41,371 nt of DNA from Eubacteriales bacterium (lineage in GTDB: Bacteria; Bacillota; Clostridia; Lachnospirales; Lachnospiraceae), in NCBI GenBank assembly GCA_030533405.1, contig JAUNJF010000027.1, positions 1 to 41,371 on the forward strand, written 5' to 3'. The position numbers and the translations under genes were made by a program. The notes under the pieces were generated by a model. The model was given only the letters and a program-made list of their open reading frames with translations. It did no database searches and had not been told where the DNA came from. How positions within the stretch are numbered: position 1 is the stretch's first letter; each line of letters begins with the position of its first letter. This document shows positions 27,018 to 32,117 of the stretch, one piece after another.

Positions 27018-28211
27018 TTAATAATTTTGACGAATGGTATGTTTTTCTCTGTATTCATTTACACGATCATGGATACGATCTGTAGGATCTAATATCTTAG
27101 AAATAGAAATATCATGATTCAAGTGATCAATCAAAAGAGCAATGTATTTGCTCATATCAGCATTGATATACCAGTCGCGAGAAAGTAATTCAGGTGTCTG
27201 GTATGTAAGGTTCGTTGTAATAACCTTTTCAATAATACCATCTTTGTTTGCCTGATCAAATGCATCCAATCCGTTTGTGAACAGACCGAATGTTGACATA
27301 CAGTAAACGCGTCTTGCATTACGCTTTTTGAGTTGCTGTGCAACATCAATCATACTTTCTCCTGAAGAAATCATATCATCAATAATAATAACGTCTTTGC
27401 CATCTACAGAATCACCTAAGAATTCATGTGCAACGATTGGGTTACGTCCATTTACAATGCGAGTGTAATCACGGCGTTTGTAGAACATACCAACATCTAC
27501 GCCTAAAATATTCGCAAAGTAGATGGCACGGTTCATGGCACCTTCGTCTGGACTGATTACCATTAAGTGCTCTTTATCTAATTCTAAATCATGCTCAGAT
27601 AATAATAATGCTTTTAAAAACTGATAGGTTGGTCGAATATTCTCAAATCCGTTCAATGGAATTGCATTATTTACTCTTGGATCATGTGCGTCAAAGGTAA
27701 TAATGTTGTCAACACCCCAACTTACCATTTCCTGTAATGCTAATGCACAGTCCAAAGACTCTCTTCCGTTGCGCTTATGCTGACGTCCTTCATATAAGAA
27801 AGGCATAATTACAGTAATTTTACGAGCTTTTCCAGCACATGCAGCAATAATACGTTTTACGTCTGCATAGTGGTCATCAGGAGACATTGGAGAAGGTCTA
27901 CCGCATACTTTGTATTCGATACTGTAGTTTGTTACATCTACAAGAATATAAAGGTCTTTACCACGAATAGATTCTGCAATGGAACCCTTTGCCTCTCCGG
28001 AACCGAAACGAGGACAACATGATTTTACAATGTATGAATCCTTTTCGTATCCGTTGAATGCAATGGTAGATTTTTCTACATTATTGCGGGCTGCACGCCA
28101 TTTTGAAATATAGGAGTCTACACGAGCACCTAATTCTGTACAGCTTTCCAATGCTACAATACCTAATGTTCCTACTGGAATAGTTGATAATAAATTACTA
28201 TCTTTTGGCAT
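27018..28211 (-). CDS. prs: Ribose-phosphate pyrophosphokinase (long form)
   Basis: Makes PRPP from ribose 5-phosphate and ATP for nucleotide, histidine and tryptophan synthesis. Family marks are seen: the F-x-R-R-like flexible-loop element in Y-K-R-R-D-Y-T-R-I-V-N-G-R, V-I-S-P-D-E-G-A and the PRPP loop V-I-I-I-D-D-M-I-S-S-G-E-S. That loop differs from the usual D-D-x-x-D-T-A/G-G-T. At 397 residues it is about 80 longer than the common form, the extra length mostly in a longer N-terminal half and an extended C-terminus. I use ATG 28211, 7 bases after GGAGG; the longer ORF start at 28244 overlaps the upstream gene. It is the last gene of the dnaD-dnaI operon, 13 bases on. Confidence 0.85.
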   Translation of the reverse strand: MPKDSNLLSTIPVGTLGIVALESCTELGARVDSYISKWRAARNNVEKSTIAFNGYEKDSYIVKSCCPRFGSGEAKGSIAESIRGKDLYILVDVTNYSIEYKVCGRPSPMSPDDHYADVKRIIAACAGKARKITVIMPFLYEGRQHKRNGRESLDCALALQEMVSWGVDNIITFDAHDPRVNNAIPLNGFENIRPTYQFLKALLLSEHDLELDKEHLMVISPDEGAMNRAIYFANILGVDVGMFYKRRDYTRIVNGRNPIVAHEFLGDSVDGKDVIIIDDMISSGESMIDVAQQLKKRNARRVYCMSTFGLFTNGLDAFDQANKDGIIEKVITTNLTYQTPELLSRDWYINADMSKYIALLIDHLNHDISISKILDPTDRIHDRVNEYREKHTIRQNY

Positions 28212-28224
28212 GATTTTTCCTCCG

Positions 28225-29238
28225 TTAAATGATTGACTTTTCATTATTTATTGATTGTCTTCTTTTGGCTAGTCGTATATTACTGCCATAGAAGTTGAAA
28301 ACTTTGTATTCGGCGAAAATGCGAGTGGTAATTCGATCGGAATATCTGTCTGTCAATTCCTGAAGATTTAGGTTCGTGGAAATGATTGTAGACTTTCCAG
28401 ACCGCATTCGCGTATTCAGTATATCATAAAGTTCTGAGGAAACAAAGGAATTTGTGAATTCTGTTCCCAAATCATCGATAATTAATAGCTCACAATCGTA
28501 TAAATAGCGATATGTTTGCTGACTTTTTGCTAATTGAGATTTTTTCATAATAACGTCTGCACAGACATCTTCAAACAGGTGAATCGATGATTGATACAGT
28601 ACGGTATGATGTTCATCAAGCAATGCTTTCGCAATACAATGTGACAAAAATGTCTTACCAAGACCGGTTTCGCCATAGAATAAAAAGTTACCACCATTTA
28701 CTTTAAAGTCTTGGATAAATTGTTTACATTTATTCATAATGTTACACATATTATCATAAGGTGTATATGGATGTGTACCATCTGACTCCTTTGCATAATA
28801 TTGTAAATCAAAATGTTCAAAATTTTCTGTTTGTAAAATATGATCCAATTCTGATTGTTTATATAGAAGAGAAATGGTAGCCTGTTTGAAACAACTACAA
28901 TAACCATTTCCTGTTTTGCCTGTGTCTTTGCAGATTGGACAAGTATATATTGGCTGCAAGTAATCAACAGGATAGCCGTGTTGTTCTAACAATGTATTTT
29001 TTTCGGCCAATAACGATTTGTTCTGGGCTTTCACTGCGTCTACCTGATCAACTTGTGTCTTTAACTTGGCACGAACTGCATCAATAGAAGAAAGGGCAAT
29101 TTCTTTGTCGATTTCTTCAATACGTGGAATGGCAGAATAAATCTCCTGCTTGCGCTGATTGGCAATAGCCTGATTATTTAATTGGTTTTCGTAGTATGTA
29201 CGCATTAACTCGTCATACTGAGAATCACTAAATGCCAT
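28225..29238 (-). CDS. DnaI/DnaC-like helicase loader ATPase
   Basis: 337-residue AAA+ protein expected to load replicative helicase with the DnaD-like partner upstream. An N-terminal helical region (1-100) is followed by a zinc-type cluster C-P-I-C-K-D-T-G ... Y-C-S-C-F (about 109-127), then Walker A G-E-T-G-L-G-K-T-F-L-S near residue 190 and Walker B L-L-I-I-D-D-L-G-T-E. Sensor/arginine-finger elements lie in the I-S-T-N-L-N and S-D-R-I-T-T-R-I segments. This layout is the clostridial DnaC/DnaI family. It begins 2 bases after the DnaD-like stop; AGGAG is 14 bases upstream, a rather long spacing. Symbol left open since DnaI and DnaC names both apply. Confidence 0.88.
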   Translation of the reverse strand: MAFSDSQYDELMRTYYENQLNNQAIANQRKQEIYSAIPRIEEIDKEIALSSIDAVRAKLKTQVDQVDAVKAQNKSLLAEKNTLLEQHGYPVDYLQPIYTCPICKDTGKTGNGYCSCFKQATISLLYKQSELDHILQTENFEHFDLQYYAKESDGTHPYTPYDNMCNIMNKCKQFIQDFKVNGGNFLFYGETGLGKTFLSHCIAKALLDEHHTVLYQSSIHLFEDVCADVIMKKSQLAKSQQTYRYLYDCELLIIDDLGTEFTNSFVSSELYDILNTRMRSGKSTIISTNLNLQELTDRYSDRITTRIFAEYKVFNFYGSNIRLAKRRQSINNEKSII

Positions 29239-29240
29239 AT

Positions 29241-30389
29241 CTATTGGTTTGTCTCCTGTAAAAATAAATTTTCAAATTCACTGACAACGGTTTCATTCGT
29301 AGAGCTTTGATATTGGTTAAATTGATTGTTCATACCATTTCTACCAGAAACCTGTTTTTTCTTTTTCTCAGCCGCCCATTTACGGTCTAATTCTTCAATG
29401 TCAGAAAGCTTATGTACATTTTGTTTGTGCCAGCTCTCTAAAATGCCATTCACATAATTAAAGTTCGCTGCATGTGGATTGGCTGTGACAGCTCGTTTGC
29501 AAGCTTCTATAATAATGTTCTTATTGAATGAATATGTATTGTACCATGTATCAATAAATGAAGTTTCCGTTGGTGTTGGAACTCTTCTTGGAATACCAAG
29601 TTGCTTTAAAACGGTAACATAAATGGAGTTATAGTTTTTAGAGGCAACCTTTGCGTCTTCCGCAGTTGTGATACCAGCTTTGTACCAGTCAATGGCAACT
29701 GCTTCGATATATCGGCAGCTCTTTTTGCCAATGGAAACACAATATTCTACCAGATATTCTAATAAATCAGGTGAAAAACATAACTCACTATATATATATA
29801 GAAGAGAATTGATATCACTTTGTGTTAATGGCTTGCCAAAATAAATCTCAGTCTGGTATAAAAGATTTCCAAAATCCTCATCCTGCTGCTTGTCCTCGAT
29901 AAAAGAAGCCTTGTATGTCTTTTTCTTTGGAACGGTAATTGCTTTTTTGATTTCTTCTATTTCCTCATCTGTAGATGCATCAGAAGTCTCGGAAACTGGT
30001 AAAGTTGCAGGTGTAACATCAGCCTTTGGCGCTGTTTCGTCGAATACTCCAAGCATAGATAATAGTGTCTGATCTTCTGCGGATGCGTTTTTTGCAGACA
30101 AAGGCAATAATGTAATGCCAGTTAAGACTTTGTTCTCTGTGTATTCTAATCGCAACACACCTTGCTTAATCCAGTAGCGAATCGCACGACAGATGTCTTT
30201 TTCTGTTAAGTTAAAGTGATCCGCAATCTGCGCAACGGTAACCTGGCGATTGCTATTTAATAAACGAACTAAATATAGATAAACCTTAACAAATTCCCCG
30301 TTTGCTTCGGTCATATAATAATCGATAAAGAAGTTAGAAATTGCAGAATAGGTTTCACGATTTTCAGTTGAAATGGTAATGGTTCCCAT
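29241..30389 (-). CDS. DnaD domain-containing replication protein
   Basis: 382-residue replication initiation protein of the DnaD/DnaB(Bs) type. The N-terminal half carries a winged-helix region with V-T-V-A-Q-I-A-D-H-F-N-L-T-E-K-D-I. Two DnaB_2-type helical units follow, each with the YxxxI..W signature: one ending in C-R-Y-I-E-A-V-A-I-D-W-Y, the other in F-N-Y-V-N-G-I-L-E-S-W. Between the halves lies a variable acidic linker (150-180). ATG 30389 has GAGGGG 9 bases upstream. Another start, ATG 30434, also has GAGGG at 8 bases, so a 15-residue longer form is possible. It heads the operon DnaD-like, DnaI-like, Prs, and lies just downstream of a DnaA-box cluster. Confidence 0.85.
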   Translation of the reverse strand: MGTITISTENRETYSAISNFFIDYYMTEANGEFVKVYLYLVRLLNSNRQVTVAQIADHFNLTEKDICRAIRYWIKQGVLRLEYTENKVLTGITLLPLSAKNASAEDQTLLSMLGVFDETAPKADVTPATLPVSETSDASTDEEIEEIKKAITVPKKKTYKASFIEDKQQDEDFGNLLYQTEIYFGKPLTQSDINSLLYIYSELCFSPDLLEYLVEYCVSIGKKSCRYIEAVAIDWYKAGITTAEDAKVASKNYNSIYVTVLKQLGIPRRVPTPTETSFIDTWYNTYSFNKNIIIEACKRAVTANPHAANFNYVNGILESWHKQNVHKLSDIEELDRKWAAEKKKKQVSGRNGMNNQFNQYQSSTNETVVSEFENLFLQETNQ

Positions 30390-30522
30390 GTGTAATTTCC
30401 CCTCTCTGTAACATTTTTTTGAGGCATTTTTCATCTCAAAATCCCTCAAGCAAATGGATTATAGCACAGTGTTTTTGAAAAGAAAATAGAACGTCTGTTT
30501 TGGAGAGGCGCTGGCAAAAAAA

Positions 30523-30549
30523 TGTGGATAATGTGGATAAAGTGGATAA
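30523..30549 (-). promoter_or_regulatory. Three tandem DnaA boxes, period 9 bp
   Basis: TGTGGATAA at 30523-30531 and 30532-30540 and AGTGGATAA at 30541-30549, back to back with no spacer. The first two are perfect on the reverse-strand consensus TTATNCACA. They fall between the likely dnaD promoter and its start codon, so DnaA binding would be expected to repress this operon. Confidence 0.8.
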
Positions 30550-30565
30550 CATGTTGACATAAAAA

Positions 30566-30596
30566 AATATAATTTTTATTCTTTCTTGGATGACAA
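30566..30596 (-). promoter_or_regulatory. Candidate promoter of the dnaD-dnaI-prs operon
   Basis: On the - strand TTGTCA (30596-30591) and TATATT (30571-30566) are 19 bases apart, or 18 for TTATAT. Spacing is longer than ideal. Transcription would start near 30560 and run straight into the three DnaA boxes. Of the 348 bases between the two genes (30390-30737), the rest is AT-rich with no coding signal. Confidence 0.45.
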
Positions 30597-30679
30597 TGTA
30601 GAAACATATGAAAGACTATGCTTTTTTTAATTTCTTGTCAGGGAAAATTATAGAAAGAACAATTATTATGTAAATAAAA

Positions 30680-30737
30680 ATATCCACAATCTATCCCTGT
30701 CAAGTAGGAAAAAATAGATTGTGGATAATGTGTATAA
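30680..30737 (-). terminator. murC terminator built from DnaA boxes
   Basis: Perfect 14-bp inverted repeat: TATCCACAATCTAT (30681-30694) and ATAGATTGTGGATA (30714-30727), 19-base loop. Read on the - strand it is followed by TTTTTATTT, so it can end the murC transcript. The arms contain DnaA boxes: ATATCCACA (30680-30688) and TGTGGATAA (30720-30728), with another, TGTGTATAA, directly adjacent (30729-30737). Confidence 0.75.
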
Positions 30738-32117
30738 CTATAATCCTAAGAGTGATTCGCCTATTAAATACACGTCTCCAGCACCCATAGTTATCAACAA
30801 ATCATTTTTTTTGCAATTTTTTAATAAATAATTTTCAACTGCATCGAAGCTGCTGAAATATCTTGCATCTGTACCAGACTCTTTGATGAGTTCGGTTAAG
30901 TCTTTTGCATGAACCAATCCAGTATCTGCTTCTCTGGCAGCATAAATATCAACTAATATTACGTGATCAAATCCTTTTAATGCATCTGCAAATTCATGAA
31001 GCAATGCATGTGTTCTTGTGTAGGTATGTGGTTGGAATACCACCCATAATTCATTGTGGGGTGTGTCAGTAGCAGTTTTTAATGTAGCTTTAATTTCGGT
31101 TGGGTGATGTGCGTAATCATCGATGACAGTTACATTTCCCAAAGTACCTTTGTGTTCGAAACGACGATGTGCGCCACCGAAGCTTGCAAGTCCGAGTAAT
31201 GCATATTGACGTTCGATTCCAAGTAAATCTGCTACGGCAATTGCAGCTAAGGAATTACATACGTTGTGTGTACCACCGATGTTTAGGTGAACCTGTTCTG
31301 CCTCTGTTCCATCTATAACAAGTGTGTAGTTCATGTGTCCCATTTCATCTGCTTCAATGTTGGTTGCAGTATAGCGGTTGTTTGCCTGAAGACCAAATGT
31401 GAGAATGTTACATGAAAGGTTTGATGTAACGCGGTCGAGACAATCCATATCTCCATTTACAACTAAAGTTCCCTGATCTGGAAGATTGGTTGCAAATGTG
31501 TGGAAGCTGTCGATAATTTCATCAATGCCGCTGAAGAAATCTAAGTGATCAGCATCTACATTTAATATGATACTAATATAAGGATAGAACGCGTGAAAAC
31601 TGTTTGTGTATTCACAGGCCTCTGTTACAAAGTAATCTGATTTGCCGACACGAATATTACCACCGATGGAATCTAAAATACCGCCTACAGAAATGGTTGG
31701 GTCAACATCTGCCTCGATGAATATCTGACTTAACATAGAAGTGGTGGTTGTTTTGCCGTGTGTACCAGATACGGCAACAGAGTATTTGTAGTTATTCATA
31801 ATCTGACCAAGCAACTGTGCTCTGGTAAGCATTGGCAAATTGCGTTTGATACATTCTGCAAACTCAGGATTATCTTCGTGAATGGCAGCTGTGTACACTA
31901 CCAAGTCAATATCGTCTGTGATATTGTCTGCTACCTGACCAATATTTACGATGGCTCCCATAGAAATTAAATTGTCTATAATATCAGAACTTTTTGCATC
32001 GGAACCACTGATTCGAAAATTCTCTTTTAATAGAATTTCTGCAAGTCCACTCATGCTGATGCCACCGATTCCGATAAAATGAACGTGAATCGGTTTGGAA
32101 AAATCGATTTGATACAT
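30738..32117 (-). CDS. murC: UDP-N-acetylmuramate--L-alanine ligase
   Basis: 459-residue cytoplasmic Mur ligase that adds L-alanine to UDP-MurNAc with ATP. The N-terminal UDP-binding domain has H-F-I-G-I-G-G-I-S-M-S-G-L-A; the ATP loop is G-T-H-G-K-T-T-T-T; later H-N-V-C-N-S-L-A-A and D-D-Y-A-H-H-P-T-E-I are typical MurC marks. Length is normal. AAGAAGG precedes the ATG. It is transcribed alone, divergent from the rpmG-secE operon, from a TTGTAA/TATAAT promoter. Confidence 0.95.
   Translation of the reverse strand: MYQIDFSKPIHVHFIGIGGISMSGLAEILLKENFRISGSDAKSSDIIDNLISMGAIVNIGQVADNITDDIDLVVYTAAIHEDNPEFAECIKRNLPMLTRAQLLGQIMNNYKYSVAVSGTHGKTTTTSMLSQIFIEADVDPTISVGGILDSIGGNIRVGKSDYFVTEACEYTNSFHAFYPYISIILNVDADHLDFFSGIDEIIDSFHTFATNLPDQGTLVVNGDMDCLDRVTSNLSCNILTFGLQANNRYTATNIEADEMGHMNYTLVIDGTEAEQVHLNIGGTHNVCNSLAAIAVADLLGIERQYALLGLASFGGAHRRFEHKGTLGNVTVIDDYAHHPTEIKATLKTATDTPHNELWVVFQPHTYTRTHALLHEFADALKGFDHVILVDIYAAREADTGLVHAKDLTELIKESGTDARYFSSFDAVENYLLKNCKKNDLLITMGAGDVYLIGESLLGL

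Follow-up and report, generated by a model that had tools for sequence, protein, structure and literature searches.

Organization of the murC-dnaD locus

We analysed a stretch of 41,371 nucleotides (the window) from a Eubacteriales bacterium, which is contig C33 of a genome assembly of 94 contigs with 95.8% completeness. On its minus strand, murC (30738-32117) encodes a protein with Mur ligase domains and ends with the stop codon TAG at 30738-30740. An intergenic stretch (30390-30737) separates it from dnaD (29241-30389), dnaI (28225-29238) and a prs-like phosphoribosyltransferase gene that overlaps dnaI (27018-28244), all on the same strand. The dnaD product is a DnaD/DnaB-like primosomal protein (Pfam DnaB_2, 1.4e-44), and dnaI encodes an AAA+ helicase loader with matches to the Pfam families Bac_DnaA, IstB and AAA. 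The nearest named matches of DnaI are 65-73% identical and come from metagenome-assembled genomes labelled Lachnospiraceae or Clostridiales.

The intergenic stretch contains six 9-mers resembling DnaA boxes, all of which were found where a sequence-only reading of the window had placed them. Array 1 (30720-30737, minus strand) starts immediately 3' of the murC stop codon and consists of two abutting boxes, TTATACACA (30729-30737) and then TTATCCACA (30720-30728). Array 2 (30523-30549, minus strand) consists of three abutting boxes, TTATCCACT (30541-30549), TTATCCACA (30532-30540) and again TTATCCACA (30523-30531), all directed at dnaD. The sixth box, ATATCCACA, lies between the arrays in the inverted orientation (30680-30688, plus strand). 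Two further features from the same reading held up: the spacer is 0 bp for every abutting pair in the window, and the DNA between the two box clusters is AT-rich, with a GC content of about 22-25% in 60-base segments. When the 41-kb window was scanned with at most one mismatch, 22 boxes were obtained against 15.3 expected, and 6 of 100 shuffles reached 22; since this count is barely above expectation, it is the clustering alone that is unusual. The locus holds at least three consensus-like DnaA boxes close together outside oriC, as a DnaA-box cluster is defined here.

Conservation of the abutting boxes

In order to examine relatives, DnaI was searched in 98 genomes (the source genome and 97 relatives), and a match was obtained in every one, although the best match was judged not to be dnaI in G058 and G083. 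The upstream regions fetched numbered 95; four with short dnaD frames were dropped (G045, G061, G067 and G076) and the window was added, giving 92 regions. The murC stop and the dnaD start were placed automatically, and otherwise 400 bp upstream of dnaD was used (e.g. G035, G055 and G063). With at most one mismatch allowed, 351 boxes were counted in these murC-dnaD regions, whereas 20 dinucleotide shuffles averaged 14.6; abutting pairs numbered 113 and were absent from all 20 shuffles. At least one abutting pair is present in 64 of the 92 regions and none in the other 28. The frequent box variants, TTTTCCACA and TTATNCACA, fit the DnaA consensus TTWTNCACA.

The boxes of the murC-dnaD regions form two arrays with boxes in the same direction. 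Where murC lies upstream, both array places hold one or more forward boxes in 23 of 26 genus regions, 24 of 32 other-family regions and 10 of 24 other-order regions, and a box starts within -3 to +10 of the murC stop in 26/26, 24/32 and 14/24, respectively. Boxes are absent from the scanned stretch of some murC-upstream regions, e.g. G042, G048, G068, G078, G090 and G096. In ten genomes of the order murC was not detected; nine of them have no box in the 400 bp upstream of dnaD, and the tenth, G086, ends at a contig edge.

The tandem pattern TTATCCACANNATNCAC gave 114 matches in 58 of the 98 genomes, while the reversed pattern gave six. A total of 49 matches, from 33 genomes, fall no more than 3 kb upstream of dnaI, and every one of them has the dnaI orientation. 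As for the remainder, 26 are upstream of hpf (23 genomes), four neighbour an nlpC gene at loci without a detected hpf, and 35 are elsewhere or unassigned. The source genome has two sites, one between murC and dnaD and the other upstream of hpf.

We also searched MurC across the class, where 116 of 118 genomes matched, and inspected the best 30 of the 116, one of which is the window and which are not a random sample. Three relatives within the family carry arrays. In the 26 relatives outside the family among these best 30, no abutting pair was found in the 900 bp downstream of murC, and single boxes occur there in five of the 26. Finally, 15 of 27 DnaI-match loci from named genomes were scanned, several of which appear not to be independent of the 98-genome set: groups of boxes precede dnaD in L005 to L013, the boxes of L016 are scattered, L014 and L018 carry a single box each, and L015, L017 and L019 lack boxes. 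The sequence-only reading had staked its proposal on conservation of the boxes in relatives, and the boxes are kept.

A DnaA box within the murC terminator

The structural examination revealed a hairpin at 30681-30727 (minus strand) with an 18-bp stem and an 11-nt loop, followed by the T-rich run TTTTTATTT. On the murC/dnaD strand its stem pairs the array 1 box at 30720, in the 5' arm, with the inverted box at 30680, in the 3' arm, and the region folds with -23.4 kcal/mol (z -5.2). In six hand-picked relatives, the terminator folds better than every shuffle of its own sequence. Covariation was counted in 25 genus sequences, 24 of them distinct, with G025 omitted owing to a 1-nt length difference. 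The number of cells in which both sides of a stem pair had changed was 24. A shuffle control, which takes no account of relatedness, gave 7.9, and slid controls, which do take account of it, gave 6-9. This excess over the controls indicates that the hairpin is selected as a structure. Twenty of the 24 cells lie outside the 9-bp box and four at its first two positions, and seven box pairs in the stem are invariant across the 25 sequences. Since these pairs stay invariant within a covarying stem, a further constraint acts on the box portion, in keeping with a DnaA site. Based on these observations, the stem-loop with its T-run, under selection for pairing, is the intrinsic terminator of murC, and one sequence serves both as a stem of this terminator and as a predicted DnaA box.

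The consensus terminator scan of the window listed no terminator, probably because the 11-nt loop exceeds its loop limit of 8 nt. In the Rfam search there were two matches only, both under the gathering scores of their families. The motif CTTGACA (30698-30704) lies mostly in the hairpin loop and is kept in 18 of the 25 aligned genus sequences.

A DnaA-assisted terminator or roadblock for murC, which would insulate the dnaD promoter and leave array 2 with little effect, is improbable as the main role of the locus. Array 1 starts where murC ends, and part of its sequence belongs to the covarying hairpin; in E. coli older work described transcription termination at DnaA-DnaA box complexes. Such a roadblock does not account for the conservation of array 2, which lies downstream of the terminator, and the inverted arm of the hairpin is rarer outside the genus than the boxes are: among other-family regions the arm was seen in 11 of 32 and boxes at both array places in 24 of 32, and among other-order regions the arm was seen in 1 of 24. 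The his operon of E. coli offers a parallel to the present locus, since a DnaA-dependent attenuator has been proposed there whose boxes coincide in position with transcribed stem-loops close to a terminator. In that system, DnaA was proposed to act on leader-RNA boxes with two mismatches each (PMC10989985), whereas here consensus boxes lie in the stem of a 3' terminator.

Position of the arrays relative to the dnaD promoter

The genus alignment (26 genomes) revealed three conserved blocks with variable DNA between them. Block a comprises the murC stop, two boxes, the hairpin with the inverted box, and TTTACATAAT. In the window TTTACATAAT is at 30665-30674 (minus strand), right after the terminator T-run, and TTTACATAA occurs in 23 of 26 genus regions. 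Block b comprises TTATGTCAAC and an array of about three boxes, which is degenerate in G002, G012 and G013; TTATGTCAAC lies at 30553-30562 (minus strand), just upstream of array 2, and TTATGT[CTA]NAC is found in 24 of 26 genus regions. Block c, which sits between array 2 and the dnaD start, comprises RAAC-N4-GTTC, a T-rich stretch and TGNTATAAT, a sequence of the extended -10 class that is present in all 26 genus regions. TTATGTCAAC is approximately the inverse of TTTACATAAT, and the two flank the variable spacer between the arrays.

The extended -10 of the inferred dnaD promoter is TGCTATAAT (30458-30466, minus strand). Between the start of the last array 2 box and the start of the TATAAT there are 68 nt, and array 2 lies at about -72 to -98 relative to the inferred transcription start near 30451, with no overlap with the promoter. 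The position of the boxes relative to the promoter is conserved in 26 of 26 genus regions, and outside the genus an extended -10 follows array 2 at a measurable distance in 26 of the 66 regions. The sequence-only reading had put the cluster at 30523-30549 between the promoter and the start codon; with block c located after array 2 and before the start codon, this order is overturned and the conserved promoter is downstream of the cluster. A promoter-like pair TTTACA-TATAAT at 30674-30647, from a consensus scan, was rejected because the genus alignment shows no conservation of its -10.

The sequence-only reading had also seen an origin-like layout, with tandem boxes, an AT-rich core and a box in the opposite orientation. 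The boxes do surround a stretch of 22-25% GC, and as in the bipartite oriC of Clostridioides difficile there are two box clusters and AT-rich DNA. However, the AT-rich spacer varies in sequence across the genus alignment, and the inverted box is the 3' arm of the murC terminator. The location of dnaA, which that reading had proposed as a check, also points elsewhere: the gene is on contig C74 and not on the window contig, its product contains GGRDHTTI, which we take to be the DnaA signature, and upstream of it lie two boxes at 2-bp spacing with a DnaA-trio-like run nearby. No trio-like run is present in 30390-30740, and a loose pattern for such runs matched in 9 of the 92 regions. The C. difficile oriC is at dnaA and has a DnaA-trio (PMC7561715), and neither is true of the murC-dnaD locus. 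A replication origin or helper origin is thus highly improbable here.

Box spacing and helical phase

Among 148 close same-strand box pairs at murC-dnaD, 113 have a spacer of 0 and 21 a spacer of 2 or 3. For comparison we used 26 regions upstream of dnaA, consisting of those from 24 of 60 genomes with a DnaA_N profile match (three of them shortened) together with those of the source genome and G001. A spacer of 0 occurs in 2 of these 26 regions and a spacer of 2 or 3 in 13; with perfect boxes only, the numbers are one and two regions, respectively. Zero spacing is also seen near dnaA as tandem matches in G001, G066 and G091. In G041 (C132:559-2628), very dense DnaA-box pairs with mixed spacing surround a dnaA-like match, and this region is probably the origin of that species.

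The abutting arrangement is atypical when set against E. coli DnaA, which favours boxes separated by 2-3 bp (PMC11317965). E. coli double DnaA boxes share with the present locus that paired boxes lie close together, and the E. coli DnaA regulon includes replication genes, but the boxes of those pairs are 2-3 bp apart against 0 bp here. This difference could mean that a protein other than DnaA reads the abutting 9-bp repeats, all the more as zero spacing is uncommon upstream of dnaA in the relatives (2/26). Such a reader is improbable, as the units and their frequent variants fit the DnaA consensus and the sites are at a replication operon.

The distance from the last array 2 box to TATAAT was measurable in 49 of the 92 regions, of which 26 are outside the genus; no distance was obtained in the other 40 of the 66 regions outside the genus. 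Of these 26 distances, 12 equal 58, 68, 78 or 88 exactly, and 18 deviate from one of these values by at most 1 bp. Clustering at periods of 9.8-10.8 has a p of about 0.0006 against a uniform null, although a period of 9, which is one box length, is nearly as good as 10 on the same distances (R 0.549 and 0.562, respectively). In a subset of 16 rows with at least two boxes, chosen post hoc, R is 0.89, a value reached by 0 of 50,000 random sets. Since the subset was chosen post hoc and period 9 performs almost equally, these statistics suggest phasing of array 2 to the promoter and support, without proving, a fixed helical face. Within the genus the distances 68 (11 regions) and 77 (6 regions) differ by 9, as expected if the outermost box had decayed.

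We also considered a DnaA titration or regulatory-inactivation site of which dnaD is a mere neighbour. The E. coli datA and DARS loci are sites of this kind, and the locus has dense consensus boxes outside oriC as well as a second array site upstream of hpf. In Bacillus subtilis, deletion of six extra-origin DnaA-box clusters leads to early initiation (PMC5295017). Titration would leave unexplained why the arrays stay at a fixed position, with the murC stop on one side and the dnaD promoter on the other, why they have a single orientation to dnaI (49/49), why box-to-promoter distances cluster, and why boxes are missing upstream of dnaD in nine of the ten order genomes without a detected murC (400 bp). 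Based on these observations, we regard it as unlikely, though the likeliest of the alternatives. The B. subtilis clusters are similar in that consensus boxes are clustered outside oriC and some are at promoters, while those of the present locus abut one another and overlap the murC terminator. The numbered major DnaA peaks of B. subtilis (PMC4447404; 269 regions in all) are sda, ywlC, ywcI, yydA, trmE/dnaA/dnaA-dnaN and gcp/ydiF.

A LexA-like dyad and the hpf site

The RAAC-N4-GTTC element of block c is a LexA-like dyad, AAACAGACGTTC (30489-30500, minus strand), 25 nt upstream of TATAAT. All 26 genus genomes have it at this position, as does one genome of another genus, G027; in the genus its arms are conserved and its centre is variable, and a match of this class is found anywhere in the region in 34 of 92. 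With a narrow profile built on lexA promoters, 2 of 26 genus dnaD regions and 7 of 23 hpf regions scored above 95% of the shuffled scores. The lexA promoters also carry AAAC-N4-GTTC sites, which fall outside this narrow profile. With a wider profile, the same level was exceeded by 11 of 26 dnaD regions and 16 of 23 hpf regions but, when the dyads alone were scored, by only 5 of 26, and most dnaD dyads score below the lexA sites. This result leaves the odds of DnaA control as they are. In the source genome the LexA-like pattern has 22 matches against 60 for the reversed control. Full-length LexA was present in 14 of 26 genus genomes (that of G014, used as the query, and 13 others 92-98% identical to it). 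It was not found in the other 12, whose assemblies are incomplete, six being at least 90% complete, and all 12 retain the dyad. LexA has possibly been lost in a sublineage of the genus, and the dyad may bring a second regulator, for which LexA is a candidate, to the dnaD promoter.

The other tandem match of the source genome is at L002:1500-1571 (G000:C88 near 16757), upstream of hpf. The frame after hpf appeared SecA-like by eye in three of six relatives' loci inspected. A further box lies exactly 53 bp upstream of the tandem in 5 of the 23 hpf regions and at 52 or 54 bp in two more; since these regions were picked for having the tandem, their spacing is no independent count. The hpf upstream regions also have a GAA-N5-GTTY dyad, about 50 bp after the tandem in L002, which resembles the lexA-promoter sites of the genus. 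Both loci with DnaA arrays may therefore share a second regulator, judging from these motifs.

Proposed control of the dnaD-dnaI operon by DnaA

Taking the conservation, orientation and placement of the boxes together, we suggest that the locus serves the dnaD-dnaI(-prs) operon as a conserved DnaA operator, at which DnaA is predicted to bind; we put the probability of this reading at roughly 70%. The sequence-only reading had proposed that DnaA may control dnaD-dnaI-prs, and this proposal gains from box conservation, orientation and promoter position. The operator probably acts from upstream of the promoter: as the boxes are clear of the promoter, upstream control fits better than occlusion. 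DnaA would bind the two arrays of abutting same-direction boxes. Since the distances between array 2 and the promoter suggest a fixed helical face, DnaA on array 2 would most likely contact RNA polymerase or nucleate a filament towards it. Activation is slightly favoured over repression as the sign of this control. On array 1, DnaA may contribute to ending murC transcription or may form a loop with array 2. In this way the supply of the helicase loader would be coupled to the level or ATP state of DnaA. The alternatives considered above are compatible with a DnaA operator and with each other.

In the titles and opening abstract lines of the matches listed by our literature search, no such arrangement is described for Lachnospiraceae, for dnaD, dnaB or dnaI, or for helicase-loader regulation. 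The same holds, among the matches listed and on the same reading, for hpf and secA, for terminators and for abutting boxes.

A wider picture is possible and more doubtful than the operator. DnaA might use two spacing codes throughout the order, 2-3 bp at the origin and abutting tandems at dnaD-dnaI and at hpf, with secA next to it. It might also set both murC termination and loader transcription, linking wall synthesis, initiation and ribosome hibernation.

A DnaA-regulated promoter is ordinary in kind, and this one would be unusual in its spacing, in its target and in sharing sequence with a terminator. If the operator reading is true, a short sequence would have one role in DNA, as a binding site for a protein, and another in RNA, as a terminator stem, and the difference in box spacing from origins would offer a direct way to test how regulatory sites are discriminated from origin sites. 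In much of the order that contains the Lachnospiraceae, the initiator DnaA would then govern how much of its helicase-loading partners is available.
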